From positions 1 through 39,672 of the IMG/VR virus record IMGVR_UViG_3300017971_000485: a stretch of 39,672 nucleotides of DNA. The stretch is one strand, 5' to 3'. Both the position numbers and the translations under genes were made by a program. Shown one piece after another: positions 9,641 through 39,672 of this stretch (position 1 is the stretch's first letter; each line of letters opens with the position of its first letter). Origin of the DNA: a virus. The notes under the pieces are model-generated. The model ran no database searches and was not told where the DNA came from. It saw nothing but the letters and a program-made list of their open reading frames with translations.

Positions 9641-9665
9641 GTTATTTCTCCTGTACATGTATGGC

Positions 9666-10043: not shown

Positions 10044-10063
10044 AATTAATCTCCTGAGTTAGC

Positions 10064-10353: not shown

Positions 10354-10386
10354 CTCTATCTCCTAGCTTAAGGTGGTTCCGTTCAC

Positions 10387-10473
10387 GCCTAACCATCAAA
10401 ATTCATCGGACGGTTGTAACGCGGCGTTTCATAGTTGACGGCATCATGCCGCCGTTGATTTTGGCCGTTATGC
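10387..10473 (-). other. attC site L3 (strong match)
   Basis: Minus strand: R'' GCATAAC (10467-10473), L'' CAAAATCAACGGCGG, L' CCGTCCGATGAATTTTG, R' GTTAGGC (10387-10393). The arms pair as CAAAAT-CA-CGG-CGG with two extra-helical bases. The stop of the gene at 10468 is inside R''. Confidence 0.85.
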
Positions 10474-10752: not shown

Positions 10753-10759
10753 CATCATT

Positions 10760-10810
10760 CCCCTAATTTATTTGGTTTCAATACGGCGGCAACACAGCAC
10801 AGCGTTATGC
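10760..10810 (-). other. Possible decayed attC
   Basis: The minus strand has R''-like GCATAAC at 10804-10810, containing the stop of the upstream gene, then CTGTGCTGTGTTGCC. No R' box or convincing arm pairing is seen before the next start. Recorded as a relic only. Confidence 0.3.
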
Positions 10811-23384: not shown

Positions 23385-23414
23385 ATCATTTCTCTTGGAT
23401 GGTATATACTAAAG

Positions 23415-25481: not shown

Positions 25482-26746
25482 TATTCAAACCCCAGGAATT
25501 TTATACCGCCCGCCTGCAGCCCGGCACCTGCTGTTGGTGCAGGAGCTGGTGCGGCTTGTGGTGGTGCCGCAGCTGGAGCTTGACGGGCTGCGGGAGGTTT
25601 CTTCTCTGGTTCTGGCGCAAGACTAAATTCGAGAGCCTCCCTTATATCGTTAGCTGTATCTGTATCTCCACGCTTCTCAGCTGTTCGTATCCCTCTATTT
25701 GCGGACCTTAATGCTATCTTTTTGGCCTGTTCTAGAATCCGTCTGTTTCCTGCAATGGACTTCCCTAATCCAGCCTCAAGCCTTGCCAATCTATCACCCT
25801 CCGCCTCAGTAAATGCAGAGCCAAAGGTTGCTTTCAATTGAGACAGTACTGATACGCCAAGGTTGTATGATAGTTCGGCCTCATCGGCAGACTCCATCCC
25901 TAGATATTGCTTTGCTTTAATTTGCGCCGCATCAAAGCCACCAGTTTCAACCATATCAAGTAGATCTAGACTTCTTTGAATGACGGCATGTGAATCAGCC
26001 GCCTCAATACCTCTATCCATAGAGAGCTGAGCTCTTTCCTCCTCATTCCTGCCTTTCGTTTCCTGAATTTTTTTTAACCCAGCAGCAAGAATATCAGCGG
26101 CTCGTTTTTCCTCTGGAGTTTCTGTAGACATCTCGTAACCTGGAGGTATATCAAAAGACGCTAGCTTTGCCTGGCCCGTTGCCGGATCAACTGTTGGAGA
26201 TGCTAAAACTTTCTCGCCGGTTTCTACATTTTTTATAGTGATTGGCTGGAAGCTTTTTACCCCAGCCTTCTCCCCTGGTCTCGGCGCATAAGCCTTCTTA
26301 AGCTGATCAAATCGCTCCTGAGTTAAAGTCGTAGTCTTTATCCCCTCAAACAGTTCTGGGTTTTGCTGAATCACGCTGTCAAGGTGGGCCTGCGCTTGTT
26401 CCAACGTTTCCATTTTAGAAGCTTCTTTTAGCGTGCTATCAAAAAGCTCTTTATTTTCACTATAAATCTGACGCATCCTGTCTGATTCTGAGCGCGCCAT
26501 TTCCTCTTCCGTTTGAGCCGCCTTAAGCTTCGCCTGCTCTCTCTGGGACTTCTGAGCCTCAAGTTGAGCCGCTGCTTGTGGGTCTATACCATAGAGCTGC
26601 TCCATGGCTCCAGGTTGCCCCATGTAAGCGCTTTGGATTAGTTTGTTTTTCTCAGCTTCTTGCCGCTGAAGCCCCTGCGCCTCAAGGCCACGACCAATAG
26701 CTGCGCCAGCCTTTGCTAAAAATGGAGTATATAGTTGTTGTGGCAT
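25481..26746 (-). CDS. Ejection-type internal virion protein
   Basis: 421 residues, helical. N-terminus MPQQLYTPFLAKAGAAIGRG, a Gln/Lys/Glu-rich coiled coil (about 55-130) and a helical domain containing FTEAEGDRLARLEAGLGKS, a motif recurring in phage DNA-transfer proteins. The tail is Pro/Ala-rich (about 375-410). Middle of three ejection-type genes, in the slot of P22 gp20 or T7 gp15. Assignment is by context and composition. Confidence 0.7.
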   Translation of the reverse strand: MPQQLYTPFLAKAGAAIGRGLEAQGLQRQEAEKNKLIQSAYMGQPGAMEQLYGIDPQAAAQLEAQKSQREQAKLKAAQTEEEMARSESDRMRQIYSENKELFDSTLKEASKMETLEQAQAHLDSVIQQNPELFEGIKTTTLTQERFDQLKKAYAPRPGEKAGVKSFQPITIKNVETGEKVLASPTVDPATGQAKLASFDIPPGYEMSTETPEEKRAADILAAGLKKIQETKGRNEEERAQLSMDRGIEAADSHAVIQRSLDLLDMVETGGFDAAQIKAKQYLGMESADEAELSYNLGVSVLSQLKATFGSAFTEAEGDRLARLEAGLGKSIAGNRRILEQAKKIALRSANRGIRTAEKRGDTDTANDIREALEFSLAPEPEKKPPAARQAPAAAPPQAAPAPAPTAGAGLQAGGIKFLGFE

Positions 26747-26788
26747 TATATTATCTCACTTATACCTGTGCTTATATAGAAGATGATT

Positions 26789-28222
26789 TTACCCACCACC
26801 TGCCAAATAGCCCCCGTACATTTGCGCACCCATCCCAAATACATCGCCCATGAAAGCCTGCTGAGCACCGGCTCCAGCCATTCTCATCTGAGCAGCCTGT
26901 TGAGCCGCACTTGTTAGTCCGCCACCTACTTGCGGAATAGCGCCACCTCCTGTCAGGGCCCCCATTGTAAGCTGCCCTGTTCCTGGAAGCTGCCCAGCAA
27001 CCAGTGTTCCCGTAGGCGCGGACCCAGCTCCTGGGGTCGTGTAAATTGGAGTACCACCCGGGCCCCCTAAATACGGAGAGCCACCAACGATAGGCTGACC
27101 TGCTCCAGGCGCACCCATTGTAAGTGCACCACCTCCAGGCACCCCGCCAACTCCAGGCTGACCAGCGTATAACTGTCCCATTCCTGGTAATTGACCGGAA
27201 ATCATAGGCTGACCCATTCCCATGCTAGCTAATGCGGTCGCTGTTTGAGGTGAGGCCATAGCCCCAAGCATATTCATGTAGTTCTGGTAGTACTGAGATT
27301 GAACATCAGAGCCAGCCTTGGCGGCTTCCTCCATCCTCCTTCCAGAATAAGCGGTACCCATTGTGGCGGCTTCTTGCTCAACCTGTTTTTGGCGCTCTTC
27401 CAAAGCCGCTTGATACCCAGGCATCTGCTTATAAGCTTCACCAGCCTCGCCAGGGGCTAACCCGAGTTCAACGGCCATCTGTTGCCGCGCTTGCTGCTCA
27501 GATGTTACAAAAGGCTGTAAAGCTTGCTGTGCCGCTTCTAGCTGGCCTTTCTGTTGAAGTACTTGAGCCTCATACCTGCGTTGCTCTTCGCCTGTGAGTT
27601 GCTGCCAGCGGGATTTCTCTTCTTGAGACAGGAGATCGTAGCGGCGTTTTTCTTCCGTGGTGATTGCTTCCGAAAATCCTACTCCACGGGCATACCTTAA
27701 CTTCTCTTCTGTGGTGTACGCATCATAACGCTGACGCTCTTCTGCTGTAAGCTCGTCAACTCTCGCAACTTGGTCTGCATAACGAAGTTTTTCTTCCTCT
27801 GTCATGCCTTCAATACGAACACGCTCAGCTTCGTATCGTTGCTGCTCTTGAGTTACAGCGGACTCATATCTCGCTTTCTCTTCTGCTGTTAATGATTCGT
27901 AATATGCTTGCCTGTCGTCATAGCGCACTTTTTCGAGATCCGTCATGGCCTCATAGCGCTGCTGTTCCAGTGCTTTTAAATCGTTGTAACGCTGTTGTTC
28001 TGTCGATGTTAGCGCTTGATATCTGCTGGCCTCCTCTAGACGACCGATCTCCCAGCGACGAGATTCTTCCTCCATTCGCTCTCGCTCGAATTGAAGCTGC
28101 GCTGCGGATGCTCGCTCCACAGAGGCTGCGCCCTGAGCTGCAGATTCCTCTGCAGCTGTGATGCCCATGAGATCTTTTGCTAAACCAACACCAGAAATAT
28201 CTTCTATTATGTCACCGCACAT
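26789..28222 (-). CDS. Internal virion protein with TxEExxRY repeats and Gly/Met tail
   Basis: 477 residues. N-terminus MCGDIIEDISGVGLAKDLMG has the early Cys common in short podophage virion proteins. Residues about 55-230 are a continuous helix carrying some 12 copies of a motif like LTAEEKARY. The C-terminal third is rich in Gly, Met, Pro and Ala. First of three ejection-type genes, so a role in the transit channel or core is inferred. It overlaps the acetyltransferase end by 11 bases. Confidence 0.72.
   Translation of the reverse strand: MCGDIIEDISGVGLAKDLMGITAAEESAAQGAASVERASAAQLQFERERMEEESRRWEIGRLEEASRYQALTSTEQQRYNDLKALEQQRYEAMTDLEKVRYDDRQAYYESLTAEEKARYESAVTQEQQRYEAERVRIEGMTEEEKLRYADQVARVDELTAEERQRYDAYTTEEKLRYARGVGFSEAITTEEKRRYDLLSQEEKSRWQQLTGEEQRRYEAQVLQQKGQLEAAQQALQPFVTSEQQARQQMAVELGLAPGEAGEAYKQMPGYQAALEERQKQVEQEAATMGTAYSGRRMEEAAKAGSDVQSQYYQNYMNMLGAMASPQTATALASMGMGQPMISGQLPGMGQLYAGQPGVGGVPGGGALTMGAPGAGQPIVGGSPYLGGPGGTPIYTTPGAGSAPTGTLVAGQLPGTGQLTMGALTGGGAIPQVGGGLTSAAQQAAQMRMAGAGAQQAFMGDVFGMGAQMYGGYLAGGG
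27530..28065 (-). repeat. Degenerate 12-18-residue repeat array inside the virion protein
   Basis: Motif T-x-E-E-x-x-R-Y recurs with 11 RY and one RW copies between residues about 55 and 230. Spacing is irregular (mostly 11-18 residues), and the DNA is less conserved than the protein. Confidence 0.8.
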
Positions 28223-28664
28223 AATTAAACCTATAAGATTCGCCGACTTTTATCATGTCGTGTGATTCAGAAATTTTAGCAATTGCATCAACAGGCAGCC
28301 CTGTTGATGTTGATAGTTGAATGTCGTTAGCCCCCTCGTCCTTTGCCAATTGGATATACTTGTTTGCCAAAAGGCTTCCTATCCCTTTTCTACGAAAGTC
28401 TGGGTGCACGTAGAAAATACGATCAGCGGCAGCACGGCAATCAGAAAAATACATTTCGCCTATTACAGCCATAAAGATTCCAGCTATTCCATCACCTTCT
28501 TCAGCTACTAAAGTGATCTTGCTTGAGTCCAGTATCATTGATTTTGCGAATGATTTTAACTTTTCTGGATTTATATCAAACACGCGATATCTAGACTCGC
28601 CATGCATTAGCACTAGCAAACTGTATATCTCGTCAAAATCAGACATTGCTGCTTCTCTAATCAT
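28212..28664 (-). CDS. GNAT-family acetyltransferase
   Basis: 150 residues. FYVHPDFRRKGIGSLLANKY (85-104) is the acetyl-CoA-binding motif A (RRKGIG at 91-96), with the preceding strands in place. Genes of this type occur among head and tail genes of several podophages. The substrate is unknown; it may modify host or virion proteins. Overlaps both neighbours by a few bases. Confidence 0.87.
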   Translation of the reverse strand: MIREAAMSDFDEIYSLLVLMHGESRYRVFDINPEKLKSFAKSMILDSSKITLVAEEGDGIAGIFMAVIGEMYFSDCRAAADRIFYVHPDFRRKGIGSLLANKYIQLAKDEGANDIQLSTSTGLPVDAIAKISESHDMIKVGESYRFNYVR

Positions 28665-28944
28665 CTAATTTCCCCGCTGCTCTAAGGCTTGCCAACAAGG
28701 CGTTAACCTGTGTAATAGCGTTGTTCAAGTCTGTCACCAATGTGTTTACATCTGCTTTAGTCTCGTTGGCCAGAATTATCACAGACGCCAAGTCTGTAGC
28801 GTTAGCGCTATCGACAGACACGGTAGAGGCAGCAGCATCAGAGACAGCATCACCTACCTTCGAAATCTCGTATAGAAAATCCTCAAAGTAAGGAGTAGCG
28901 CACCCGTTCTTATCAACGATAATTATGTTGCTTTCAAGGCTCAT
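28657..28944 (-). CDS. Small coiled-coil virion protein (probable)
   Basis: 95 residues. A strand-rich N-terminus (MSLESNIIIVDKNGCATPYF) is followed by a long Ala/Val/Leu heptad region (TDLASVIILANETKADVNTL to the end), likely a trimeric or tetrameric coiled coil. It overlaps the gp10-like gene by four bases. P22 has its tail-needle gene after gp10, so a needle-like or fibre-like role is possible, though it is much shorter. Confidence 0.6.
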   Translation of the reverse strand: MSLESNIIIVDKNGCATPYFEDFLYEISKVGDAVSDAAASTVSVDSANATDLASVIILANETKADVNTLVTDLNNAITQVNALLASLRAAGKLDD

Positions 28945-30362
28945 ATGCTCACCTCTGGATAAAATCGTGCACCGTAGAATTGAACGTCAACCGGATCAGT
29001 CACCTCTAAACGTATGCCAAAATCTTTATTCCTCACCACCCTTCCAAATCTTCTTAATGGAACACGGGTTCTATGATTGCCGTATTTCCCTAATGAGATA
29101 TTGCTTTTCTTGGTCCAGGTGTTCCCTCCATCCTTGGTGAAGTAGACAATCATCTTAGGATCGGCACTCGGGTCATCTGTCTTGGCAACCTCCATGTCTA
29201 TCTCGATTAGAGGGATAGTCATATTCTTGTCAGTAGAAATAAACTCAGATACTAGTTTAGTTCTCAGTATTTCGTTATCCTCAGTTCTGTTTGATGGGTC
29301 CAGAGTCCATAGTTTACCCTCTATGATATCACCGCAGATAATAGCGTTATCATATTGAACAGCAGAGTTAACCCTCCAGTAGCCGAAGCCTTCAGATTCC
29401 CTAGTATGGGTTAAACCTGTATTGACATCGAAGCCCCACGTCCACCCCTCAGAAGGGAAAGTGAGGTAATAGGTAGAATGCACCGGGCCATCAACAAAGA
29501 AGCCTACAGCGTCCTCTAGCTGGGTAAAGCCAGGGTAATCAGCGGACCCGTTGCCTTTCACTTTAAGCGTGAAATCCAGATCTGAGATATTCACAAGCTC
29601 GGTGCCTTGCATCATTCTCACTGTCCGGTCATCAGCTAGGAATGCAAAATAATCGTTTACATCAGCAAGAGAATCGACTGACAGTATGCCCCACTCTTTT
29701 GAGCCGCCATTTACCCGCCTAACTGGGAGGGTGGCGTCCACAATAGACTGCCAGTATTCTGTCGTTTTCCCGCCCAATATAAACAGCGCCGATTTCTTGG
29801 CTATAATGGCCTTAACCTCATCCGGGGCCTCTTCAGCTGAGGCAAACGTCAGCGGATTATAAGCAGTCGCATCGGATACGTCAGAGCCGAAAAACTCATT
29901 GGTGCCATCTCTAACCAGCCAGTGCCGTTCATTCAAAACCGTAACCGACGAGCTTGGGAAGAAGTCAGGATCAGATATTAAGACTAGGCCTAGGGCAACA
30001 CTGTACACATAACCCACGCCTGAGCCGTTAAGGATGAGTATCTCAGAATCACCAGGGATGGCATTAGGTACAAGCTTGGCGCGACCTGAACCGTTCACGG
30101 CACCGATGTTTGTTACAGCGCCAGCTGAATCAACACGGTAGAACCTGGAGCCTGCCACCAAGTAAATAAACCCATTATTAACCAGCAAATTAGACCTAAC
30201 AGGGGCCTCCATGCCGGTAGCGAATAGGGTTAGACCTTCCGCTTTTTTAACCGAGGCATACGTCCCGTCTCGGTTAACCTCAGGAATTAGATTCACTAAG
30301 CGCCCTCGACTCTTTTTAGAGCCGTAGTCTTTCTCGCGCATCAGCAACGGAAACTCAGCCAT
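28941..30362 (-). CDS. P22 gp10-like tail hub / DNA stabilisation protein
   Basis: 473 residues, essentially the length of P22 gp10 (472). Begins MAEFPLLMREKDYGSKKSRG, then beta-rich sequence with repeated FLADDRTVRMM and WTWGFDVNTG type strands. In P22, gp10 forms the hexameric tail hub below gp4 and seals packaged DNA. It overlaps the gp4-like gene by 8 bases. Confidence 0.87.
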   Translation of the reverse strand: MAEFPLLMREKDYGSKKSRGRLVNLIPEVNRDGTYASVKKAEGLTLFATGMEAPVRSNLLVNNGFIYLVAGSRFYRVDSAGAVTNIGAVNGSGRAKLVPNAIPGDSEILILNGSGVGYVYSVALGLVLISDPDFFPSSSVTVLNERHWLVRDGTNEFFGSDVSDATAYNPLTFASAEEAPDEVKAIIAKKSALFILGGKTTEYWQSIVDATLPVRRVNGGSKEWGILSVDSLADVNDYFAFLADDRTVRMMQGTELVNISDLDFTLKVKGNGSADYPGFTQLEDAVGFFVDGPVHSTYYLTFPSEGWTWGFDVNTGLTHTRESEGFGYWRVNSAVQYDNAIICGDIIEGKLWTLDPSNRTEDNEILRTKLVSEFISTDKNMTIPLIEIDMEVAKTDDPSADPKMIVYFTKDGGNTWTKKSNISLGKYGNHRTRVPLRRFGRVVRNKDFGIRLEVTDPVDVQFYGARFYPEVSI

Positions 30363-31302
30363 AACGCGGCATCCCTATCTTAATTGGGTGGGAGTCCGTG
30401 TCGAATGAGAGCATGTCATTTTTGAGGCGCTGAGCTTCTGACATGATCAGCGCAGTTCTTTCAGGCGATGCACCGTATTTGGGTATTAATTTAACCGCCA
30501 CATTGTAAATAAATGCCTCTTGCGCATACTCAGGTACATCAAGGGTTTCTTCGCCTTGAGTCATGACCTGCATTTTTCGTTCGTATGTGAAGTTGATTAC
30601 GGGCACTGAGCTAATAGGCGAATTCCAGAAATACATCACGCCATACTTTTCACCGGCGACATCTTGACGGTCGTAATAGGCCTGGATTGGCGTGCCGGTC
30701 TGGTCTTTATTAGGCAGAGCAAAGTACTCTTCCCTAGAGGCATTAACTATCTGAATTTCGTAGTCTTCACCCTCTTTACGACGGATATCTGTAACTCTGG
30801 AAACAGGAATAAACGTGTCTCTGTAATTTCTTACAAAGGCTCCGCTATTTGTAGCCAGTGGAATGGCATCTTTAACAGTTACGGTAGCCCCGTTGATGAA
30901 GGTTACGGTTGTCCAGAACAGGTCGTTATCGTTTTGAACAATACCTATAACATCATTACGCTCTATATCATCAGCGGATGTGACACTGAATGTATAAACA
31001 CCAGCCGCAGTATCAGCAGTGGTGGTAGTTTCGAAATACTCGTTTGTTACGCGAGTTGTAGACTGGCGGAAATCATACTTCTCTTGGCCAACTTTAAGAA
31101 ATAAAGATCCTTCTGTTTCAGTCCACAAGTGCATGCCCTGCGACTGCCACTCTTTTAGTAGAAGATTGCCGCTCCTCTTGAAGCGAGCAATCATATCGCC
31201 GTCTAGAGATTCCCCATCCGCTGCAATCTGTAAAATATCAAATGCCTCTGCCGCTGCGTCATTTACAGACAGTGCCAGAGTGTAATTGCCGGATGTGGCC
31301 AT
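30355..31302 (-). CDS. P22 gp4-like head-tail adaptor
   Basis: 315 residues. An N-terminal helical bundle (ALSVNDAAAEAFDILQIAAD, GNLLLKEWQSQGMHLW) and a C-terminal helical part (FIYNVAVKLIPKYG) are typical of phage adaptor proteins. A beta-rich insertion (about 85-240) makes it longer than P22 gp4 (166). It would bind the portal ring and the gp10-like hub. The portal gene is not in the window. Confidence 0.78.
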   Translation of the reverse strand: MATSGNYTLALSVNDAAAEAFDILQIAADGESLDGDMIARFKRSGNLLLKEWQSQGMHLWTETEGSLFLKVGQEKYDFRQSTTRVTNEYFETTTTADTAAGVYTFSVTSADDIERNDVIGIVQNDNDLFWTTVTFINGATVTVKDAIPLATNSGAFVRNYRDTFIPVSRVTDIRRKEGEDYEIQIVNASREEYFALPNKDQTGTPIQAYYDRQDVAGEKYGVMYFWNSPISSVPVINFTYERKMQVMTQGEETLDVPEYAQEAFIYNVAVKLIPKYGASPERTALIMSEAQRLKNDMLSFDTDSHPIKIGMPRYG

Positions 31303-31311
31303 GATGCCTCT

Positions 31312-31563
31312 CTAAATTATGTCAAAACTAGGTACTGCGTCCGTTGTTAAATCTTCGATCCGAACATCCTTAACCACACGTTGCGGCTTGGGTACTACAG
31401 GGAAATCCTGAGGCTGGCGTTGATGCCATGCCTCAGGGATTACGAAATAACCTTCCCAGCGCCTCAGAACCTGGCTCCTCTTTACTTTAAAACCAGTCGT
31501 GTCGCATATTGTGTTCGAGTCGTTAGGACTAAAGTAATCAGTCGATTTTGCTCGTCTTCCCAT
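31312..31563 (-). CDS. Conserved small virion-module protein
   Basis: 83 residues. ICDTTGFKVKRSQVLRRWEG, then VIPEAWHQRQPQDFP and a proline-rich end, a pattern seen next to adaptor genes in diverse tailed phages. Structural or assembly role inferred from position; no function known to me. Confidence 0.7.
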   Translation of the reverse strand: MGRRAKSTDYFSPNDSNTICDTTGFKVKRSQVLRRWEGYFVIPEAWHQRQPQDFPVVPKPQRVVKDVRIEDLTTDAVPSFDII

Positions 31564-31565
31564 GG

Positions 31566-32213
31566 CTAGTACTCATTTTGGAATATCACCCATTTAAGCT
31601 CAGCAGTATCTGTGTAGCTGTTAACCACTAATCGCGTGGCCGATGAATGCAATTCGCCAAGCTCCTTTAAGTCGGCCGTCTTAGCCGTTAAAGCCTCCAT
31701 GTTAAACCAGGATATGTTTTCAGGAGTTCCAGCGTTAAGCTGAGGATGAATCTCTTCAAGAGACTCCTGCACCGTGTAATCAATTGTGCCTGTCACATCT
31801 ACAGCATGCGTAGCGGCTTCATGGGCTCGATAGTTCAAAGGCAGAAGCTTAGTCATTACCTCATCAACCCAACCGATATCAAATGTGCCTACAGTAGCCG
31901 CATCAGTTGTGCCTGAGGTCACCGTCAACCAATACTTTGTGGTTTCGATGGTAGTAGCATTAGGCAACACAATATCCTCAGTCTGAGCAAACCCGTCAGG
32001 GTCAGTTCCAACCAGAGTTAAAGTCGGGGCATTTCCTGCAGGCTCATTTCCAGCGGTCGTGATAACCAGTCTATGAGCAAGGCTGTCCCCTGAGCCAGTC
32101 GCGAGCCATTCGGCATCTGTGCCGAAGGCCCACGCTGTTCCCGTTGGTAGATCGTCCGCTATGCCATTTGCATCGACATTAGCGGGATCTATATCAAAAA
32201 CAAACGGCTTCAT
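31566..32213 (-). CDS. Beta-rich virion protein (probable)
   Basis: 215 residues, rich in Thr, Ala and Asp with alternating strands (LAHRLVITTAGNEPAGNAPT). No helix-rich region or signal peptide. It lies between the beta-helix protein and the adaptor genes, overlapping the former by one base. A head-surface or head-tail structural role is inferred. Confidence 0.65.
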   Translation of the reverse strand: MKPFVFDIDPANVDANGIADDLPTGTAWAFGTDAEWLATGSGDSLAHRLVITTAGNEPAGNAPTLTLVGTDPDGFAQTEDIVLPNATTIETTKYWLTVTSGTTDAATVGTFDIGWVDEVMTKLLPLNYRAHEAATHAVDVTGTIDYTVQESLEEIHPQLNAGTPENISWFNMEALTAKTADLKELGELHSSATRLVVNSYTDTAELKWVIFQNEY

Positions 32214-33184
32214 TATGAATCAGCCGCTGGTAGTAGATAGCCAGAGGTGTCAATCACAGAGGCGCTATAGTTCTCAGTAAACGAGAAGTTTGTTCCTGCT
32301 GTAGCAACCAGCTCACCTGCGATGTCGCGAGACATAAATCTGTTGTTTGACACGAAACCAGTATTTGCCGTAGTCGTGTCAGCACTGATGGCCACAAAAC
32401 TGGCTGCTGCCAAGGTTGCATATCGGTTACCATCAATCAGCACATTGGTCAGATCTTTACCTGTCAAGGCCTCAACTAAGTGCAGGGCGTTGGCATTCAG
32501 GTGATTTACCACGCAATCCTTAACCACCAAGCGGTCAAGGTCAGCAGCCGTCACGATGAATGAATCAATGGCTGCATCAATTCCAGTGGAGACACAACCT
32601 TCGACATGTAGACCGTCAGCGGCGTTATCAGTGGTGCTTGATGCGTTGATATAGTCAACGAAGTTCAAGTCCGCACCTTCTTCTGCAAACTCACAGTTTA
32701 GGATGCTAAGATTTGCCGCTGTTACATCAATGGCATTGGTGATATCGGCGAATGATGCTTCTAACACAAGATTCATCAATGTTACATTAGCCGCTGATAC
32801 GGTTACCGCAGCTGCCGCCGCCGTATCTAGCACAACTTTAGGCCGAAGCGCGCCAGAGCCAATCCCGATAATCGAAACGCCTGCAACATCACACGCGATA
32901 CCTCCATCGGTTGTAATCGTCTCTTCATGCCCAGGCAGAACAAAGATTACATCGCCACGACTGGCCACACATCGACCAATTGCAAAATCAATTGTTCTGA
33001 ATGGGCGCTGGAATGTACCGTTACTTGGCGACGTTGAATCAGCACCAGCAATACTTTGATTTTTGTCTAGCAGAACATCTGCATTGCTGACAAAAAACAC
33101 CTCTCCAGGATTGGTTATAGTCAGGGGCACACCTTTAATGGTGACCCCATCCTTAAAACCGCCTGGGAAATTTGAAATACTCAT
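32213..33184 (-). CDS. Beta-helix (pectate-lyase-like) virion protein
   Basis: 323 residues. FQRPFRTIDFAIGRCVASRG, then recurring short strands (VSIIGIGSG, VTLMNLVLEASF, LSILNCEF, LVVKDCVVNHLNANAL, VLIDGNRYA) at about one turn per 20-25 residues, the pattern of a right-handed parallel beta-helix. No catalytic motif is evident. It follows the capsid gene, so it may be a head decoration or an enzyme on the capsid rather than a tailspike. Confidence 0.72.
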   Translation of the reverse strand: MSISNFPGGFKDGVTIKGVPLTITNPGEVFFVSNADVLLDKNQSIAGADSTSPSNGTFQRPFRTIDFAIGRCVASRGDVIFVLPGHEETITTDGGIACDVAGVSIIGIGSGALRPKVVLDTAAAAAVTVSAANVTLMNLVLEASFADITNAIDVTAANLSILNCEFAEEGADLNFVDYINASSTTDNAADGLHVEGCVSTGIDAAIDSFIVTAADLDRLVVKDCVVNHLNANALHLVEALTGKDLTNVLIDGNRYATLAAASFVAISADTTTANTGFVSNNRFMSRDIAGELVATAGTNFSFTENYSASVIDTSGYLLPAADS

Positions 33185-33246
33185 TGTTTTTCTCCTATGA
33201 ACCCATGTAGGGCCTTTTCAGGACCGCCATAGTTCGAAAGTGTTAA

Positions 33247-34149
33247 TTACTGGCCGCTGCCCCAGGCACATCGTGGGTCAGTGAAGCCATACGACTTGTA
33301 AAACATCCCCTTGCTTCGGAAGTTTTCAGTCCCAAAATCGTTATCCTGACTGAATGTATAATCCATCCGGTTAAAGATCTTGAACCCATCATCAACATCA
33401 GTGCGGATAAACCACTCAGACGCTGAAGTGAAGCGATGGTTGACGTGATAGCCATTCGGGAAAATGTCATACACGGGGTTAACAGTCGCTGTATTAGCGG
33501 TGTTAGGCTCGTACATTGACCCAAGGATACGCTCGGCAGTCCAACGAAGCTGACGCGGGATGTGCAACGATTTAGCTTTAGCGCTAATTAACAGGCCTGC
33601 GCCGTCTCGGAAATCCTCAAGTTCTGTCATTGCATCTTCAATCGCGGCTTGCGATAGAGGAGTAAAGACAGTGAATCGGTTAGAGAACGTGCCGCCCTTG
33701 CCCAATACGTGAGCGGTGCTGAACAGGGGCACGCCATCGCCGCCATTAACACTATAAGCGGTATTGATGACATTGGCCGCCAACTGCTCATCGGTATGAA
33801 CCAAAGAACGCTTCAGCATTGTGCCTGCTTTCTGGATCAGGTCGCGCTTCAGGTTATTCATCTGGGCTTCCATTGTGATAATGGTGCCTAAAGAATAAAC
33901 AGCGTGGGTGTAAGTAGTCGCGAAATCTTGCTTTTCTGCATCGTAAGAGGTGTTATCACCCTCTGGTTTCAAAGATGCAAGGCCAGTTCCTGACAAGCTT
34001 ACATCGACCTCATACGCTTTCTGTGACTGAAAAGTATCGAATATTTTGTCATATTCCATCTCTTTCTCAGCGTATTCGATGGTCGCAATCGCGTTGATGC
34101 CCTCTTGTAATAGGCGGGCTTCAGAGCCTTGAGTTACTATGCTAGCCAT
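33247..34149 (-). CDS. Major capsid protein
   Basis: 300 residues. An N-terminal arm (MASIVTQGSEARLLQEGINA) precedes FATTYTHAVYSLGTIITMEA, LFSTAHVLGKGGTFSNRFT and a C-terminal SKGMFYKSYGFTDPRCAWG. These fit the HK97-fold capsid relatives of Mu gpT. Position directly after a small cement-like gene supports the call. No scaffold or protease gene is seen beside it. Confidence 0.8.
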   Translation of the reverse strand: MASIVTQGSEARLLQEGINAIATIEYAEKEMEYDKIFDTFQSQKAYEVDVSLSGTGLASLKPEGDNTSYDAEKQDFATTYTHAVYSLGTIITMEAQMNNLKRDLIQKAGTMLKRSLVHTDEQLAANVINTAYSVNGGDGVPLFSTAHVLGKGGTFSNRFTVFTPLSQAAIEDAMTELEDFRDGAGLLISAKAKSLHIPRQLRWTAERILGSMYEPNTANTATVNPVYDIFPNGYHVNHRFTSASEWFIRTDVDDGFKIFNRMDYTFSQDNDFGTENFRSKGMFYKSYGFTDPRCAWGSGQ

Positions 34150-34151
34150 GA

Positions 34152-34736
34152 CTAAATCCCCGTCTGGTTAAGGGCTTCTTGAGAAGCGTTGATTGAAACC
34201 ACCCAGTCAGCATTTGTGCCAAGCTCATTCTCTGGCGCGTCATGCACTCGGTGTAGCCGCATATTCAGGGTGCTGGTGCTAGCCGCTGAGTCACTATCTA
34301 GCTCCATACCAGAGACCCCTGTCACTGCGTTCCCGGAACCAACGACCACATTAATGTTCAAGCCTGCCTCGGTGATCTCGATATCGTTACCTACAGAATC
34401 TTCCTGACAGGTATAAAGCACATCTTGACCCCAATACACAAAAGCATCACGCGCTGTTGAAGCTAATCGGTGGTTGGTGGTTAGCGTACCTTCATCAGTA
34501 AAATCTGGCAGGAATGAAGCAATAACGCCAATAGAGGCGTCTCCGGCAGCTGATTGAGCTACAACAGGCTTTGTTCCGGTTGCGTCAGCGGTCCCAGTAA
34601 GCTTTACTAAGTCACCTACAAAGCAAGCAACTGAATCGCCAGCGGCAAATGTTACGCGGCGTAGTTTCCCGTGAAAATCAGCACCAGACAAGGTGCCGAT
34701 TGGTGTTAGACCTGCTGGTCTATCTGCATTGGCCAT
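34152..34736 (-). CDS. Head cement / decoration protein
   Basis: 194 residues, beta-rich, small-residue-rich (MANADRPAGLTPIGTLSGAD). FAAGDSVACFVGDLVKLTGT and IGVIASFLPDF are typical of capsid-decorating cement proteins encoded beside major capsid genes. AAAGGAGG lies before the ATG. It is the first intact gene of the leftward late operon. Confidence 0.75.
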   Translation of the reverse strand: MANADRPAGLTPIGTLSGADFHGKLRRVTFAAGDSVACFVGDLVKLTGTADATGTKPVVAQSAAGDASIGVIASFLPDFTDEGTLTTNHRLASTARDAFVYWGQDVLYTCQEDSVGNDIEITEAGLNINVVVGSGNAVTGVSGMELDSDSAASTSTLNMRLHRVHDAPENELGTNADWVVSINASQEALNQTGI

Positions 34737-34752
34737 AATAGCCTCCTTTAAG

Positions 34753-34836
34753 TTAAGTTAATAATGTCGTTTGTCTGCCCATTCTTAGAGCATAACAGCG
34801 AACCTTATGCTTAAAGGTGCTATCTGTATTGGCCAT
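34753..34836 (-). pseudogene. Truncated duplicate of the cement gene start
   Basis: A 27-residue frame begins MANTDS, with DNA nearly identical over 17 bases to the start of the cement gene (MANADR). It then diverges and stops. Only a weak ribosome site precedes it. It looks like the remnant of a duplicated or replaced gene lying between the late promoter and the first late gene. Confidence 0.4.
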
Positions 34837-34855
34837 ACTTAGACCATCTTTGTAA

Positions 34856-34884
34856 ATAATAGCCTTATATTCAGCTGATTACAA
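34856..34884 (-). promoter_or_regulatory. Candidate late-operon promoter
   Basis: Minus strand TTGTAA (34879-34884) and TATTAT (34856-34861), 17-base spacing, pointing at the head genes. If used, the late operon begins with the cement protein, not with a portal gene. Confidence 0.5.
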
Positions 34885-34935
34885 CATTTTTGACGTTAAG
34901 TCCATAGGGTTATAGCGGGATGGGCTTTAATCTGC

Positions 34936-34963
34936 TTGACATGTAACGTTTATCTGTTACGCT
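34936..34963 (+). promoter_or_regulatory. Candidate promoter of the rightward right-hand genes
   Basis: TTGACA (34936-34941) and TACGCT (34958-34963), 16-base spacing. A small inverted repeat (GTAAC, 8 bases, GTTAC) lies in the spacer. It points at the zinc-ribbon and PAPS-reductase-like genes and back-to-back with the late promoter. Confidence 0.5.
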
Positions 34964-34970
34964 TTTAAGC

Positions 34971-35102
34971 ATGGCAACGTTAATTAAATGCGTAATTTGC
35001 GGAAAGAAGAAGTGGTCCAGGGCTGATGCTCTAACGTGCTCAGGTAAATGCAGAACCAAAAAATGCAGGAGGGATAAGAAAAATGGTTTACGAACTTTAT
35101 GA
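34971..35102 (+). CDS. Small zinc-ribbon protein
   Basis: 43 residues (MATLIKCVICGKKKWSRADA). CVIC and CSGKC-type cysteines form a treble-clef-like site; the C-terminus is very basic. No clear Shine-Dalgarno; the start is close to the predicted promoter. It overlaps the PAPS-reductase-like gene by 20 bases. Confidence 0.6.
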   Translation: MATLIKCVICGKKKWSRADALTCSGKCRTKKCRRDKKNGLRTL

Positions 35103-35934
35103 CAACGAACCATACCTAATAAGCTTTAGTGGCGGCCGATCCTCTGGCTATATGCTCCATAATTTGCTTGAAGCAAACAACGGACTACCGGGGCAAGCCT
35201 ATGTTTTATTTGCCAACACTGGAAAAGAAATGCCGGAAACACTGGACTTTGTAGCAGAGTGCGCAGAGCGGTGGCGCGTCAATATCATCTGGCTAGAACA
35301 CTGTTATGGCGATGATGGAAAAGTCTCTTTTAGGGTCGTTAACCGCGACACGGCATCGATGAACGGAGAGCCATTCGAGGAGTTGATAGGTAAGAAACAT
35401 ATGCTCCCAAATGTTGTTACTCGCTTTTGCACTGAAGAACTAAAAATTAACCCCATGTTTAGATACATGCGATCAATTGGAATAAAGAAAAAGAACCTAA
35501 CCGATGTGATCGGCATCAGGTATGACGAGCCGCGACGGGTGGCAAAGATGCGCGCCAGGAACGAAGTAGAAAAATTCGAAACAATCGCGCCTTTGGCTGA
35601 AGCAAAAGTTGATAAATACGAAGTTGGCTCTTTTTGGAAAGCTCAGCCATTCGATTTAAAGCTAGACAACAACAACGGTACAACACCTCTAGGCAATTGT
35701 GATCTCTGCTTCTTGAAAGGAGAGAAAAAAATAAGCTCAATTATTCGCGATCATCCATATCTGGCTGAATGGTGGTTTCAACAAGAGGACAGGATACAAA
35801 AAGGCTGTAGAGACGCTGGCGGGAATATTGAAAATGCCAGTTTTATAAAGCGCATTCCTTACCGAGCTCTGCCTGGCGCAAACATAGACGACCTGCTAAA
35901 CATAGAGATTGAGTGCCTTGGCTGTACCGATTAA
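35083..35934 (+). CDS. PAPS-reductase-like PP-loop protein
   Basis: 283 residues. The PP-loop SFSGGRSSGYM (14-24) places it in the adenine nucleotide alpha hydrolase / PAPS reductase superfamily. FCTEELKINPM and IGIRYDEPRR are typical of the phage branch. Cysteines in GNCDLCFLKG and near the C-terminus (CLGC) could hold a metal or Fe-S cluster. Family members activate substrates by adenylation or reduce PAPS; some modify nucleic acids. The substrate here is unknown. CAGGAGG precedes the ATG. Confidence 0.85.
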   Translation: MVYELYDNEPYLISFSGGRSSGYMLHNLLEANNGLPGQAYVLFANTGKEMPETLDFVAECAERWRVNIIWLEHCYGDDGKVSFRVVNRDTASMNGEPFEELIGKKHMLPNVVTRFCTEELKINPMFRYMRSIGIKKKNLTDVIGIRYDEPRRVAKMRARNEVEKFETIAPLAEAKVDKYEVGSFWKAQPFDLKLDNNNGTTPLGNCDLCFLKGEKKISSIIRDHPYLAEWWFQQEDRIQKGCRDAGGNIENASFIKRIPYRALPGANIDDLLNIEIECLGCTD

Positions 35935-35996
35935 TCTAGTCGCCCAACGTTCTGCTGTTCTAAGTGCAGGGTTTATCAGTGGAGAAAGGACAAGAA

Positions 35997-36200
35997 ATGA
36001 ATGATCTGAATAAAACTATCTATATAAGCACAGAAGTAGGCGTTGGCGGGCATGAGCCGGGAGTAGATGGCGAGGTTACCAATCCTGTGCACAATTACGA
36101 GGATGCTAAAAAGCTTGCTGAGCATTTTGAAAAGCATGGAATATCGGCAAAGATAAAGAATACGGGAGACACTGAATGTGAACAGCACCACAACACCTGA
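35997..36200 (+). CDS. Hypothetical cassette-region protein
   Basis: 67 residues from the ATG at 35997 (MNDLNKTIYISTEVGVGGHE), supported by GGAGAAAGGAC upstream; an in-frame ATG at 35964 is less well placed. A helical motif (EDAKKLAEHFEKHGISAKIK) follows a strand-rich half. It overlaps the next gene by 23 bases. Confidence 0.62.
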   Translation: MNDLNKTIYISTEVGVGGHEPGVDGEVTNPVHNYEDAKKLAEHFEKHGISAKIKNTGDTECEQHHNT

Positions 36201-36453
36201 AACAAACACCGAGGAAGGCGGTCTGGTTGAGCCGCTTGTTATATGCGCGTTTAGAGAGCTTAGGGAGAAATGGTTTAATGCTAAATTGAAGCGATTTGCC
36301 CATGAGCGAGAATGGGAAGAAGAGTGGCAGACTGAATCAAGAGAAGAGGAAAACAGAGGGCTTAAGGTGATATTTGATAAGCAAACCGAGGAGATTATCG
36401 CTGGCAATGCTGCGCCAATAGCGCCGACATGCTCCCACGATATGAGCATATAA
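36178..36453 (+). CDS. Hypothetical cassette protein, GTG start
   Basis: 91 residues from the GTG at 36178 (GGGAG about 10 bases upstream). Mostly one charged helix (FRELREKWFNAKLKRFAHER), very rich in Glu, Arg and Trp. The stop lies in the R'' box of the first attC. Function unknown. Confidence 0.6.
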   Translation: MNSTTTPETNTEEGGLVEPLVICAFRELREKWFNAKLKRFAHEREWEEEWQTESREEENRGLKVIFDKQTEEIIAGNAAPIAPTCSHDMSI

Positions 36454-36509
36454 CGCAAAGATAACCCGCCGGACTGAACAAAGTGAACGTGTTAATCGAC
36501 TTGTTATAA
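36448..36509 (+). other. attC site R1 (moderate match)
   Basis: R'' ATATAAC (36448-36454) and R' GTTATAA (36503-36509) are nearly complementary. Inner arms CAAAGATAAC and GTTAATCGACTTG pair with bulges. The weakest of the right-hand sites, but in register with the array. Confidence 0.6.
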
Positions 36510-36535
36510 GTCAGTAACTAACCAAGGAGGCCGAG

Positions 36536-36721
36536 ATGAATGGGTTCAGTTGGATTATAATTTTAGCAGCATTGGTATTCGTATTGTTGTATTTAATTGG
36601 TACAGATAAGAATGAAAAGATAGCTAAAGTAACTAGTAATTGCAGTCCTACAAGTCTTGTAATTATCGCCAGCAACGGAGACCCTGTGAGAGTTTATGAC
36701 TGCTCTGAAGCTGGCTTATAA
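36536..36721 (+). CDS. Small membrane-anchored cassette protein
   Basis: 61 residues. An N-terminal hydrophobic segment (about 4-22, FSWIIILAALVFVLLYLIG) is followed by a small domain with two Cys (residues about 35 and 56) that could form a disulphide if exported. AAGGAGG precedes the ATG. Function unknown. Confidence 0.65.
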   Translation: MNGFSWIIILAALVFVLLYLIGTDKNEKIAKVTSNCSPTSLVIIASNGDPVRVYDCSEAGL

Positions 36722-36838
36722 CGAACAGCTTGAGGGGCTTGCGGCCACTCAAAACTTAAAGGTAACGACATGAACACTGAAGCTGGACAAAACCAAGGAA
36801 CGTCGCGGACGCAAGTCCATTCTAAGCAATTGTTAGGT
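36716..36838 (+). other. attC site R2, long, containing a start codon
   Basis: R'' TTATAAC (36716-36722) and R' GTTAGGT (36832-36838). Long arms pair as GCTT then GG-CTTGCG-CC with bulges (36728-36748 with 36808-36828). AAAGG and an ATG at 36770 lie in the variable loop. Confidence 0.75.
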
Positions 36839-37015
36839 GTTGATTGGTTTGGCTATGAATTACTTAAACCAAGTAAATATCCACCTAATTTTATTCCGCG
36901 AGGCGCTACGCCTGTTATTGGCATTGACCAAGGCTCACCAGATGGTGATTGCACTTGCAGAGGGTTTTATAAGGATGGTGTTTTTCATGTTCAGGAGGTT
37001 AAGCACAATGATTAG
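36770..37015 (+). CDS. Hypothetical cassette protein started inside attC
   Basis: 81 residues. The only in-frame ATG lies in the preceding attC, so about the first 22 residues (MNTEAGQNQGTSRTQVHSKQ...) are attC-encoded; the cassette proper begins near LLGVDWFGYELL. AAAGG lies about 8 bases upstream. The C-terminal part has CTCRGFYKDG. It overlaps the next gene's start by 8 bases. An alternative is a TTG at the cassette boundary. Confidence 0.55.
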   Translation: MNTEAGQNQGTSRTQVHSKQLLGVDWFGYELLKPSKYPPNFIPRGATPVIGIDQGSPDGDCTCRGFYKDGVFHVQEVKHND

Positions 37016-37196
37016 CGGAAAAGAACTTTTGATAGGGATTATTTGCGGAATCGTTGGGATGGTTTTGTCTGGACTTGCTGCTGCATTCATTAGCAATCAC
37101 CAAGATATCGCGCCGGTTGCAACGCACTTGATGTCTGGCTCATTCGCCACATTGGGCGCACTTGCCGGTGTAGCAATGGCCCGGATAGACACCTAA
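37008..37196 (+). CDS. Small two-pass membrane protein
   Basis: 62 residues (MISGKELLIGIICGIVGMVL...), two hydrophobic segments (about 7-27 and 40-57) joined by a short polar loop. CAGGAGG precedes the ATG; a much longer upstream in-frame start is not supported. The stop is the TAA of the R'' box ACCTAAC. Holin-like topology, but function unknown. Confidence 0.68.
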   Translation: MISGKELLIGIICGIVGMVLSGLAAAFISNHQDIAPVATHLMSGSFATLGALAGVAMARIDT

Positions 37197-37264
37197 CGCC
37201 CCGCATCAGCTGGACGCAACAAGCGCCAGCGCAGTTGCGGATCGGCTGAATGCGATTGTTATAC
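37191..37264 (+). other. attC site R3 (strong match)
   Basis: R'' ACCTAAC, L'' GCATCAGCTGGACGCAAC, L' GTTGCGGATCGGCTGAATGC, R' GTTATAC (37258-37264). The L arms pair over about 18 bases with two extra-helical bases. Loop AAGCGCCAGCGCA. Confidence 0.88.
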
Positions 37265-37284
37265 GTGCCTTATGGAGAGGTTAA

Positions 37285-37659
37285 ATGCTAATACGTTGTT
37301 GTGGATGCGAAAAGAAAGTTGACGCCAGGCTGACTGATGGAGGTGAAATATACCCTCATAGACCTGATTTAAAGTCACTTCCGTTTTGGAAGTGTGACGC
37401 TTGCGGGAATTACGTTGGGTGCCACCATAAAACCAAGAATAGAACGCAGCCGCTTGGGTGCATTCCTACGCCTGAGATTAAGAATGCAAGACAGCATATT
37501 CATAAATTGCTAGATCCTATCTGGCAATCTGGGAAAATGAAACGAAAAGAAATTTACAAGATTTTAAGCGATAGATTGGGCTGGAAATATCACACGGCCA
37601 ACATACGGAGCGTTGAAGAAGCACGTGAGGTTTACCGCATAATTCAAGAGCACGTATAA
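37285..37659 (+). CDS. DUF3268 zinc-finger-containing protein
   Basis: 124 residues. RCCGCEKKVDARLTDGGEIY, then FWKCDACGNYVGCHHKT and PLGCIPTPEIKNARQHIHKL match the DUF3268 zinc-binding family, often found in phages. The C-terminal half has a helical DRLGW region. Single-gene cassette between attC R3 and R4; the stop lies in R''. Function of the family unknown. Confidence 0.8.
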   Translation: MLIRCCGCEKKVDARLTDGGEIYPHRPDLKSLPFWKCDACGNYVGCHHKTKNRTQPLGCIPTPEIKNARQHIHKLLDPIWQSGKMKRKEIYKILSDRLGWKYHTANIRSVEEAREVYRIIQEHV

Positions 37660-37713
37660 CGCCAGCGATTAGCGGCAACGCTTTTTGTTGTCCGCTAGAT
37701 TGCATTGTTATAC
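37654..37713 (+). other. attC site R4 (strong match)
   Basis: R'' GTATAAC and R' GTTATAC (37707-37713) are exactly complementary. L'' GCGATTAGCGGCAAC and L' GTTGTCCGCTAGATTGC pair with two extra-helical bases. A short TTTTT-containing loop makes it the most compact site. Confidence 0.9.
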
Positions 37714-37734
37714 CGCACAACTAAGGAGCTAGAA

Positions 37735-38295
37735 TTGACAAATAAATATAAAACGATTATTGCTGATCCGCCATGGAGGTATGGAAAGTGGGGTGTAGCT
37801 ACGCCCGAAAGCAGGCCAAACGGCAAGCAATACGATATGCCATACGAAACCATGACCATTTCCGAAATTGCCGCGCTTCCAGTTGCCGCCATGGCTGCGG
37901 AGAATTGCGACCTGTACCTGTGGACCACGCAGAAGTATTTGCCGCAAGCGTTTGATGTGCTGAAGGCGTGGGGATTCAGGTATTGCCAGACCCTGACATG
38001 GTGCAAGGCACCACGCGGAACCGGCCAGGGTGGCTTGTACTGCCCCACAAATGAATTTTTGATACTTGGGCGCAAGGGCAGGATGCCAACCGGAAAAACG
38101 CGCAAGGATTCAACGTGGTGGAAAGTGAAGCGACCGCACAACCAGCATAGCAAGAAGCCAGAGTTCTTCCAGGATATGATAGAGCAACAGAGCGATGGCC
38201 CACGGGTTGAGCTGTTTGCCCGCAGACCCCGTGAAGGTTGGGACGTGTGGGGGAATGAGGTTGAATGCACTGCCGAACTACCTGGCGCGGTATAA
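37735..38295 (+). CDS. MT-A70-family N6-adenine methyltransferase, TTG start
   Basis: 186 residues from a TTG at 37735, supported by AAGGAGC 6-7 bases upstream; no suitable ATG exists. DPPW (11-14) is the catalytic motif; DLYLWTTQKYLPQAFDVLKA and GFRYCQTLTWCKAP are family-typical. The C-terminal PRVELFARRPREGWDVWGNE closes the fold. Phage members protect DNA from restriction by methylating adenine; the target site is unknown. Single-gene cassette between attC R4 and R5. Confidence 0.9.
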   Translation: MTNKYKTIIADPPWRYGKWGVATPESRPNGKQYDMPYETMTISEIAALPVAAMAAENCDLYLWTTQKYLPQAFDVLKAWGFRYCQTLTWCKAPRGTGQGGLYCPTNEFLILGRKGRMPTGKTRKDSTWWKVKRPHNQHSKKPEFFQDMIEQQSDGPRVELFARRPREGWDVWGNEVECTAELPGAV

Positions 38296-38360
38296 CGGTT
38301 GCCATAAGCCGACGCGAAGCCGCAACGCGGCAAGCGGTCGGTTTGATGGCTTGGTTATAC
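38290..38360 (+). other. attC site R5 (strong match)
   Basis: R'' GTATAAC, L'' GCCATAAGCCGAC, L' GTCGGTTTGATGGC, R' GTTATAC (38354-38360). Arms pair with one extra-helical base, and an inner hairpin GCCGCAACGCGGC caps the loop. Arms are closely related to those of attC L2. Confidence 0.9.
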
Positions 38361-38384
38361 GGCACTTTCTCCGGTGCTTAAATT

Positions 38385-38404
38385 AACTGCAATTAAATGC
38401 AGTT
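38385..38404. promoter_or_regulatory. Upstream operator palindrome in the three-gene cassette
   Basis: AACTGCA (38385-38391) and TGCAGTT (38398-38404) are a perfect 7-bp inverted repeat with a 6-base spacer, seven bases upstream of a consensus promoter. It shares the TGCA core with the second palindrome at 38420. Confidence 0.6.
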
Positions 38405-38410
38405 TAACGC

Positions 38411-38439
38411 TTGACATGCTGCAATATATTGCATATAAT
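38411..38439 (+). promoter_or_regulatory. Perfect consensus promoter inside a cassette
   Basis: TTGACA (38411-38416), 17-base spacer, TATAAT (38434-38439): full sigma-70 consensus. The spacer holds the palindrome TGCAATATATTGCA (38420-38433), ideal for repression by an autoregulator. Drives the genes at 38477, 38728 and 38937. Confidence 0.88.
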
Positions 38440-38476
38440 TATTACCAAGTTAAGGCAAATAACAACGGAGAGAGAG

Positions 38477-38731
38477 ATGGGAAGAATTGTTTTTAAAGCT
38501 AAAGTTAAAACAGCTACTTCTGGACGTGAATATATAAGCGTGCCAAAAACGGTTAAAAAAGAACATTTTTTCGGTGAGCATCGATCTAGCAATACCAGTA
38601 TTTTCGAGGAAATATTAAAGCGTGAATTAACTATCGCGATCGGGAAAACCAAGATGATTTATTTAGATAGCTTGCCTCATAAGGTTAGTATTTCAGGCGA
38701 TTTTATGAAAACAGTGGTGGTGGAGATATGA
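38477..38731 (+). CDS. Small protein of a self-regulated three-gene cassette
   Basis: 84 residues from the ATG at 38477 (MGRIVFKAKVKTATSGREYI), with CGGAGAG upstream. The segment GREYISVPKTVKKEHFF resembles the swapped-hairpin start of AbrB-type antitoxins and regulators, but the rest does not match clearly. It overlaps the next gene by four bases. Possible DNA-binding repressor of its own promoter; not certain. Confidence 0.65.
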   Translation: MGRIVFKAKVKTATSGREYISVPKTVKKEHFFGEHRSSNTSIFEEILKRELTIAIGKTKMIYLDSLPHKVSISGDFMKTVVVEI

Positions 38732-38940
38732 AGTACGGAGATGTTAGCGAAAATGATTTCATGCCGCACTGGAACGAGATTCAAAAGCTTGCGTATAAGA
38801 ATGCCTATGAATGCGTTTCAGGGAATCCTTTCCCGCCAGGTAGCGCTGAGGCGGTAGAGTATAGGCGCTTCTATTCTTCAACTAGGGACGAGATATTAGA
38901 GGCTATCGAATCGGGAGAGATTGGAGTGGTTTTTAAATGA
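38728..38940 (+). CDS. Small acidic protein, second gene of the unit
   Basis: 70 residues (MKYGDVSENDFMPHWNEIQK...). Helical, with FPPGSAEAVEYRRFYSSTRD in the middle and an acidic end. Coupled to both neighbours by ATGA overlaps. No family recognised. In an autoregulated operon of this layout it could be a toxin, an antitoxin or an effector; the sequence does not decide. Confidence 0.62.
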   Translation: MKYGDVSENDFMPHWNEIQKLAYKNAYECVSGNPFPPGSAEAVEYRRFYSSTRDEILEAIESGEIGVVFK

Positions 38941-39101
38941 GTATTAAAGAAAACCTGAAAGCTAAAGGCTACACCAGAGACGAAATAAAAGCCCGCTGGG
39001 GCATCAAGGAACGCCAATACTACAACGTGCTAGCCAATCCTAAACAGATCCACGTCGACGCGGTTAACGGCCTGCCACGGAAAAAGAAGGGTGCCGTATA
39101 A
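38937..39101 (+). CDS. Small HTH-like protein, third gene of the unit
   Basis: 54 residues. KGYTRDEIKARWGIKERQYY followed by a second helix and a basic tail (PRKKKGAV) reads as a helix-turn-helix. Its stop is the TAA of the R'' box of attC R6. It may bind one of the palindromes at 38385-38433. Size and order fit a regulator. Confidence 0.65.
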   Translation: MSIKENLKAKGYTRDEIKARWGIKERQYYNVLANPKQIHVDAVNGLPRKKKGAV

Positions 39102-39229
39102 CGTCGCAATTAACCGGACCGCCGAGAACGAAGCTACGGAGATAAAGACTATGACACAGCAAGCAGAAACCACGCAATCAGAATCAAACGCCGCGTTAGG
39201 CGGGTCCGAGTTGAATTGCTTTGTTAGGC
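39096..39229 (+). other. attC site R6, long, containing a start codon
   Basis: R'' GTATAAC, L'' GCAATTAACCGGACCGCC, L' GGCGGGTCCGAGTTGAATTG, R' GTTAGGC (39223-39229). Arms pair over 18 bases with three extra-helical bases. The long loop contains GGAG and an ATG at 39151 that opens into the next cassette. Confidence 0.88.
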
Positions 39230-39327
39230 ACGATGATTGCACTGATGGATGTTGTTTGCATGGTGTTGGATGGGATGAGCCATGTTACGACTGTGAACCT
39301 GAGCTTATACCAGAAGCATCACTTTGA
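39151..39327 (+). CDS. Cys-rich cassette protein started inside attC
   Basis: 58 residues. The ATG at 39151, with GGAG 8 bases upstream, lies in the loop of attC R6; about 25 residues (MTQQAETTQSESNAALGGSE...) are attC-encoded. The cassette part has HDDCTDGCCLHGVGWDEPCY, a dense Cys/His cluster likely to bind metal. Function unknown. Confidence 0.58.
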   Translation: MTQQAETTQSESNAALGGSELNCFVRHDDCTDGCCLHGVGWDEPCYDCEPELIPEASL

Positions 39328-39340
39328 GGAGATTAGGAAA

Positions 39341-39535
39341 ATGTTTGAGAATTACATGAATGACACGTTTCAACCATTGCATGGGCAGTTGCTGTATCGC
39401 GTTGTTTTATCTGCCGAAGATGGCCGATATACGCTACAAAACGGCTTTAATAGCGAAGCCAGCGCGATCAGGTACGCAAAGAACAAAGATCATGAATACG
39501 GCGAAGGTCAACACCTTTACGTCGAATCTTACTAA
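39341..39535 (+). CDS. Hypothetical cassette protein
   Basis: 64 residues from the ATG at 39341 (MFENYMNDTFQPLHGQLLYR), supported by GAGGAGATTAGG upstream; an upstream in-frame start inside the attC R6 end is not needed. Strand-rich with a YTLQNGFNSEASAIRYAKNK helix. Function unknown. Confidence 0.65.
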   Translation: MFENYMNDTFQPLHGQLLYRVVLSAEDGRYTLQNGFNSEASAIRYAKNKDHEYGEGQHLYVESY

Positions 39536-39554
39536 CAACAGGAGAAAAAATATT

Positions 39555-39671
39555 ATGAAACATAAAAAACGTTATGCAGCTTGGGGTCACGATGGTAGTT
39601 TCCGTTTTAAATGGCATCGCGATTTATGGGCATGGTGGAACCGCAAACAATACGGCAAGCCTGGTGCCTAA
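39555..39671 (+). CDS. Very small Trp-rich basic protein
   Basis: 38 residues (MKHKKRYAAWGHDGSFRFKW...), with five Trp and many basic residues. AGGAG precedes the ATG by 10 bases. The stop is the TAA of the R'' box GCCTAAC at the window edge, as in the other cassettes. Function unknown. Confidence 0.6.
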   Translation: MKHKKRYAAWGHDGSFRFKWHRDLWAWWNRKQYGKPGA

Positions 39672-39672
39672 C
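39666..39672 (+). other. R'' box of a further attC, cut by the window edge
   Basis: GCCTAAC fits RYYYAAC exactly and contains the preceding gene's stop codon. The rest of the site is outside the window. Confidence 0.65.

Follow-up and report, generated by a model that had tools for sequence, protein, structure and literature searches.

Two arrays of integron-type gene cassettes with reversed attC sites in a phage genome in which no integron integrase was detected

We studied one complete virus record of IMG/VR, IMGVR_UViG_3300017971_000485, whose 39,672 bases are called here the window. Its genes encoded a terminase, a head-closure protein and a DNA transfer protein, along with a protein that matched major head protein families weakly. 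Two arrays of small genes and attC or attC-like sites were found: array 1 at 36-39 kb, with genes in the plus strand and sites in the minus strand, and array 2 at about 9406-10810, with genes in the minus strand and sites in the plus strand. An earlier note on this DNA had located one array at 36448-39672; an array does lie there, but the second one had been missed. The features are listed below, with the scores (in bits) of a covariance model (CM, see below).

Array 1:
36188-36244, minus strand: possible degenerate attC, weak (CM 9.8 bits, E 3), preceding the gene that ends at 36453
36448-36509, minus strand: attC (CM 26.7 bits)
36536-36721, plus strand: cassette gene (61 aa), TAA stop on the next crossover
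36716-36838, minus strand: attC (CM 30.5 bits, larger search)
36855-37196, plus strand: cassette gene or genes, open frame with TAA on the next crossover
37191-37264, minus strand: attC (CM about 41.3 bits in the minus strand vs 14.9 in the plus strand)
37285-37659, plus strand: cassette gene, DUF3268 zinc-finger protein (PF11672, phrog_1934)
37654-37713, minus strand: attC, the strongest site (CM 47.4 bits, E 6.6e-9)
37735-38295, plus strand: cassette gene, MT-A70 family DNA methyltransferase (PF05063, phrog_359)
38290-38360, minus strand: attC (CM 39.2 bits)
38411-38439, plus strand: promoter-like sequence, TTGACA and TATAAT spaced by 17 (12/12, a consensus match only)
38477-39101, plus strand: cassette of three overlapping small genes (38477-38731, 38728-38940 and 38937-39101)
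39096-39229, minus strand: attC with a long terminal loop (arm scanner and fold)
39151-39671, plus strand: final cassette of the array, with several small genes

Array 2:
9407-9658, minus strand: cassette gene, TAA stop at 9407 adjoining the crossover
9666-9753, plus strand: attC-like (arm scanner only)
9748-9951, minus strand: cassette gene
10064-10134, plus strand: attC (CM 34.0 bits, E 7.9e-6)
10129-10353, minus strand: cassette gene
10387-10473, plus strand: attC (CM 28.4 bits, larger search; sister contig too)
10468-10758, minus strand: cassette gene
10683-10810, plus strand: attC-like (arm scanner only), the stop of the preceding gene on the crossover

The plus-strand block ahead of array 1 starts with a PAPS-reductase-like gene (35083-35934; PF01507, phrog_424), and no attC was found directly around it. 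At the possible degenerate site 36188-36244, the outer R box GTTATATGC was the complement of GCATATAAC, the gene end at 36454. The sigma-70 promoter-like sequence at 38411-38439 belongs to the cassette that opens with attC 38290; it closely follows this site and reads in the direction of the genes. Array 1 ends with TAA^C at 39671/39672, where the R boxes were complementary over 10 bases.

A sister contig, IMGVR 3300028840_001461 (47,308 bases), was 100% identical to the window over positions 23250-39672 (16.4 kb) and continues past the end of array 1 and of the window as non-array DNA with minus-strand genes. Homologues of these genes adjoin a capsid-like gene in related phages, which places array 1 within a structural gene block. 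A chimera of phage and array was considered and is unlikely because the sister contig has phage genes at both flanks of array 1, although its full identity may mean that both contigs came from one sample or from related ones, which keeps it from being a fully independent check. The assignment of the attC sites to a phage genome in the earlier note was thus borne out. So was its statement that the segment lacks an integron integrase: a profile search of the 39,672-base window found neither a PF00589 tyrosine recombinase nor an integron integrase, the 47 kb sister contig gave no match to TIGR02249, and no integron integrase scored above the cut-off in any of 22 array-bearing viral records. The window therefore does not hold a complete integron, which includes intI, and corresponds to a CALIN, i.e., at least two attC sites with no intI nearby.

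Sites were identified against a reference set of attC from bacterial integrons, whose direction was fixed by intI. In those bacterial sites with unequal arms, the extra bases were in L'' in 54 and in L' in 2. A strict ungapped scan for R and L boxes missed true sites, and a gapped arm scanner and a CM made only of 46 bacterial integron attC sites were used instead. Seven window sites exceeded the CM threshold, with E <= 0.004 in a search of 433 kb (five in array 1 and two in array 2), and the three strongest reached E values of 7e-9 to 5e-7 in a search of the window, the E-values of this model being rough. All six sites that the earlier note had described between small genes in one polarity (36448, 36716, 37191, 37654, 38290 and 39096) were confirmed as attC-like. 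Five of them scored with the bacterial model, while the full site 39096-39229, with its long terminal loop, fell below the threshold; its arms aligned well in the gapped arm scanner, and its fold is a long hairpin. The array 2 sites 9666 and 10683 were not significant by CM and are reported on the basis of the arm scanner only. The attC architecture was present, that is, an R'' box ending in AAC and an R' box starting with GTT around imperfect L arms and a variable loop, and the extra bases in L'' and the covarying structure were found in the strand opposite to the genes. Rfam gave no match, and BLAST returned no named phage carrying the attC of the window. A search for the host, run with an attC motif on 369 genomes from a single class, yielded matches only with 3 mismatches.

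In an alignment of 98 distinct phage sites, 399 cells had changed on both sides of a pair vs 166 in shuffles, a count that leans toward the structure because the alignment had been fitted to it. A test of wobble pairs fitted a folded attC bottom strand, and both a DNA and an RNA reading predict this result. The hairpins might then be RNA elements between phage genes, acting in processing, as insulators of ribosome binding sites or as terminators, since in the reversed arrays the mRNA is of the same sense as the folded strand and its hairpins would be alike in structure and in wobble bias. We find this hardly credible, given that the R boxes are conserved, that the extra bases are of the attC type, that the R boxes pair across genes and that the homology of the units in other phages stops at the R box (see below); intrinsic terminators were not in excess, and none was found in the plus strand. 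If the sites are attC, as their architecture indicates, they might still be worked by another tyrosine recombinase, either the host XerCD or a phage-coded enzyme. The lack of an integron integrase in the window and in the 22 viral records would agree with this, and XerCD acts on folded single-stranded CTX phage DNA. We regard such an enzyme as unlikely, because the sites have the features for which IntI selects attC in bacteria, and IntI1 recombines some attC sites from other phages in published assays (PMC9892861).

All the significant CM matches were antisense to the genes, in the minus strand at 36-39 kb and in the plus strand at 10 kb. Read in the direction of the genes, the extra bases of the window sites lay in L' and not in L'', the mirror image of the bacterial sites. 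Since the attC strand is opposite to the genes, each site opens a gene and does not close one, which reverses the polarity assumed in the earlier note, where every site closed one to three small genes. None of the resolvable window cassettes had its gene running along attC, which is the arrangement in cassettes of the bacterial type.

The predicted cut point, or crossover, corresponds to TAA^C on the gene strand and G^TTA on the attC strand. An ORF of at least 50 codons ended exactly at the crossover triplet in all 10 window sites, in 1 of 49 bacterial sites and in 66 of 150 sites of viral contigs; for TAAC positions drawn at random from those viral loci the proportion was 10%. The crossover sits right behind the stop codon, and therefore an insertion there would leave the upstream gene intact. 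The R boxes flanking each gene paired with each other over 9-12 bases, vs a mean of 5.6 when boxes were swapped between cassettes, which is the trace expected if the gene was once circularised with its own attC.

Three unrelated phages in viral contigs (L035, L057 and L437) carried gene families of the window behind an upstream attC. The match of L035 to the window ran from 37656 to 38296 and took in the methyltransferase gene together with the site preceding it; no attC followed the gene. In L057, the site upstream of the methyltransferase gene (9919-9978) was 96.6% identical to window 37654-37713, no attC was found downstream, and the adjacent methyltransferase proteins were only 43% identical, with a good DNA match at the gene ends only. 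In L437, the DUF3268 gene was 88% identical to that of the window and the match stopped at the crossover base, 37660. Upstream of this gene lay an attC different from that of the window, none came directly after it, and the compared stretch of L437 had nothing else in common with the window at the nucleotide level. As the sites precede the gene and none follows it, the cassette unit consists of an attC and the gene downstream. These are gene cassettes in the broad sense, attC-gene units with ends at the R-box core, their movement being deduced from comparison. The attC and the gene do not always travel together, as L057 shares the site but not the gene and L437 the gene but not the site.

Comparison with related phages located the insertions. 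In more than 20 of them the two structural genes that flank array 1 were adjacent, mostly 130-450 bases apart, whereas in the window they are 5.3 kb apart with array 1 between them. Likewise, in six relatives of L057 the gene found before the cassette closely precedes an SSB-like gene, and the methyltransferase gene is absent.

The orientation of genes relative to attC was then surveyed. In bacterial integron controls, 89 of 100 cassettes were sense, 2 antisense and 9 unassigned, and among 91 cassettes of viral contigs 24 were sense, 42 antisense and 25 unassigned. These viral contigs were fetched by an attC DNA motif, blind to orientation, and were not collapsed by relatedness; the 91 include two cassettes of phage TJE1 added by hand. 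This orientation-blind set provides the fair comparison, another phage set having been picked in part after orientation had been seen, and two GC-rich contigs of ambiguous orientation (L036 and L038) were left out as support. Phage hallmark genes were present in both the sense and the antisense groups, and sense-format arrays also occur in phages. One 66 kb record (IMGVR 3300020171_000022; L339/L340) had two reversed arrays on opposite strands with 15 attC in total. Related methyltransferase genes were also seen in two contigs of metagenome-assembled genomes. That in a Bacteroidetes contig (L114, 5640-6650) lay between long hairpin repeats ending in TAAC/GTTA, of which the second seems to have equal arms without extra bases. 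In a phage-like contig of a Paraglaciecola genome (L115, 9500-10705), GTTATACCTC and GAGGTATAAC stood on either side of the gene and are the same cassette ends.

Two other origins of the arrays can be weighed against these data. The earlier note had proposed that the phage captures or exchanges cassettes with a host integron, and ordinary bacterial cassettes taken from a host chromosomal integron would account for sites of the bacterial attC type that score with a purely bacterial CM; phages that carry parts of host integrons do exist. This origin fits poorly and seems improbable to us because the relation between gene and attC, which is fixed within a cassette and cannot be changed by insertion, is the reverse of that in bacterial cassettes. 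Moreover, the cargo of known family is phage-like, close copies of the cassettes are found in other phages, and phage homologues of DUF3268 are mostly outside cassette form, those of isolated Vibrio phages lying in ordinary gene rows. Relaxed constraint is the other option, and it has a better, if still minor, chance of being sufficient: with no Pc promoter in phages, cassettes of either gene orientation would survive, the two being equally good outcomes, and no special mechanism would be needed. Both formats occur in phages in the proportions given above, and one cassette contains a promoter-like sequence of its own; this explanation alone, however, leaves the stop codons at the crossover unaccounted for, in the window as in the viral contigs.

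The comparisons show that the sites are attC by sequence and covariation, and they show the polarity of the sites, the stop codons at the crossover, the limits of the units in unrelated phages and the insertion relative to other phages. Taken together, the data make it probable that the window carries two integron-type cassette arrays with reversed attC in a phage devoid of an integron integrase, and that a host integrase serves them in trans. Judged from sequence, these would be phage-specific cassettes, each formed by an upstream attC and one to three phage genes, with the attC running against the genes. The host integron integrase would bind the folded gene-sense strand (the attC "bottom" strand) and cut beside the stop codon, at TAA^C. 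The attC and gene could then be released as a circle, or a circle inserted directly behind a TAAC stop codon, which would add a co-directional gene to the operon. We infer that the enzyme is an integron integrase, that these attC are functional and that exchange of the cassettes takes place mainly among phages; the data suggest that phages maintain a set of swappable gene cassettes of their own.

We further propose, tentatively and with the odds against it, that phages make cassettes from their own genes by capture at stop codons. A reversed attC located before a gene would recombine with the TAAC stop of that gene, where G^TTA on the other strand equals the R' box core, and the gene would leave as a cassette. 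Such a process would account for the antisense polarity and also for the position of the stop on the crossover. To our knowledge, the origin of gene cassettes is an open question. The stop-codon-bounded format of these phages offers a concrete and testable route from ordinary genes to cassettes and, if capture at stop codons is true, a route to their unexplained origin, with phages as the makers. This format would also imply that phages carry an exchangeable gene pool of their own, including methyltransferases and small early genes, on which the integron integrase of any given host would act.

Arrays of attC in phages, lytic ones included, have been published with recombination assays (Qi et al. 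2023, PMC9892861). An integrase-less attC array such as the earlier note had called unusual is indeed present here, but its rarity was overstated in view of that report. The CALINs of Qi et al. are, like the window, phage attC arrays without intI and with methyltransferase cargo. Of the phages in that work, MW202573 resembles the window in having sites in the minus strand and annotated genes in the plus strand, and differs in that the crossover does not fall on the annotated stops. The array of TJE1 follows the sense format, unlike the window. The text of PMC9892861 makes no mention of reversed gene/attC polarity or of stop codons at the crossover. Clusters of attC in phages are therefore already known, while for the reversed, stop-at-crossover format no description was found in the open-access literature, subscription papers being outside the search.

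The chromosomal integron arrays of Proteobacteria are similar to the window arrays in attC sequence and structure, in array layout and in the R-box complementarity of the closed cassette. They differ in the direction of the genes relative to attC, which is opposite to that of the window, in the intI not found in the window, and in the position of the stop, near R'' of the cassette's own attC in chromosomal integrons and at the crossover here. As described in papers citing Loot et al. (2024), attG insertion outside integrons, with its short core target, resembles the solo cassettes of L035 and L057, and the short array of L437, also outside any integron, can be likened to it; a G^TT core was read from the junctions. 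Set against attG as described in those papers, the target in the window is the antisense of a TAAC stop in a row of phage genes, and the cassettes are reversed.
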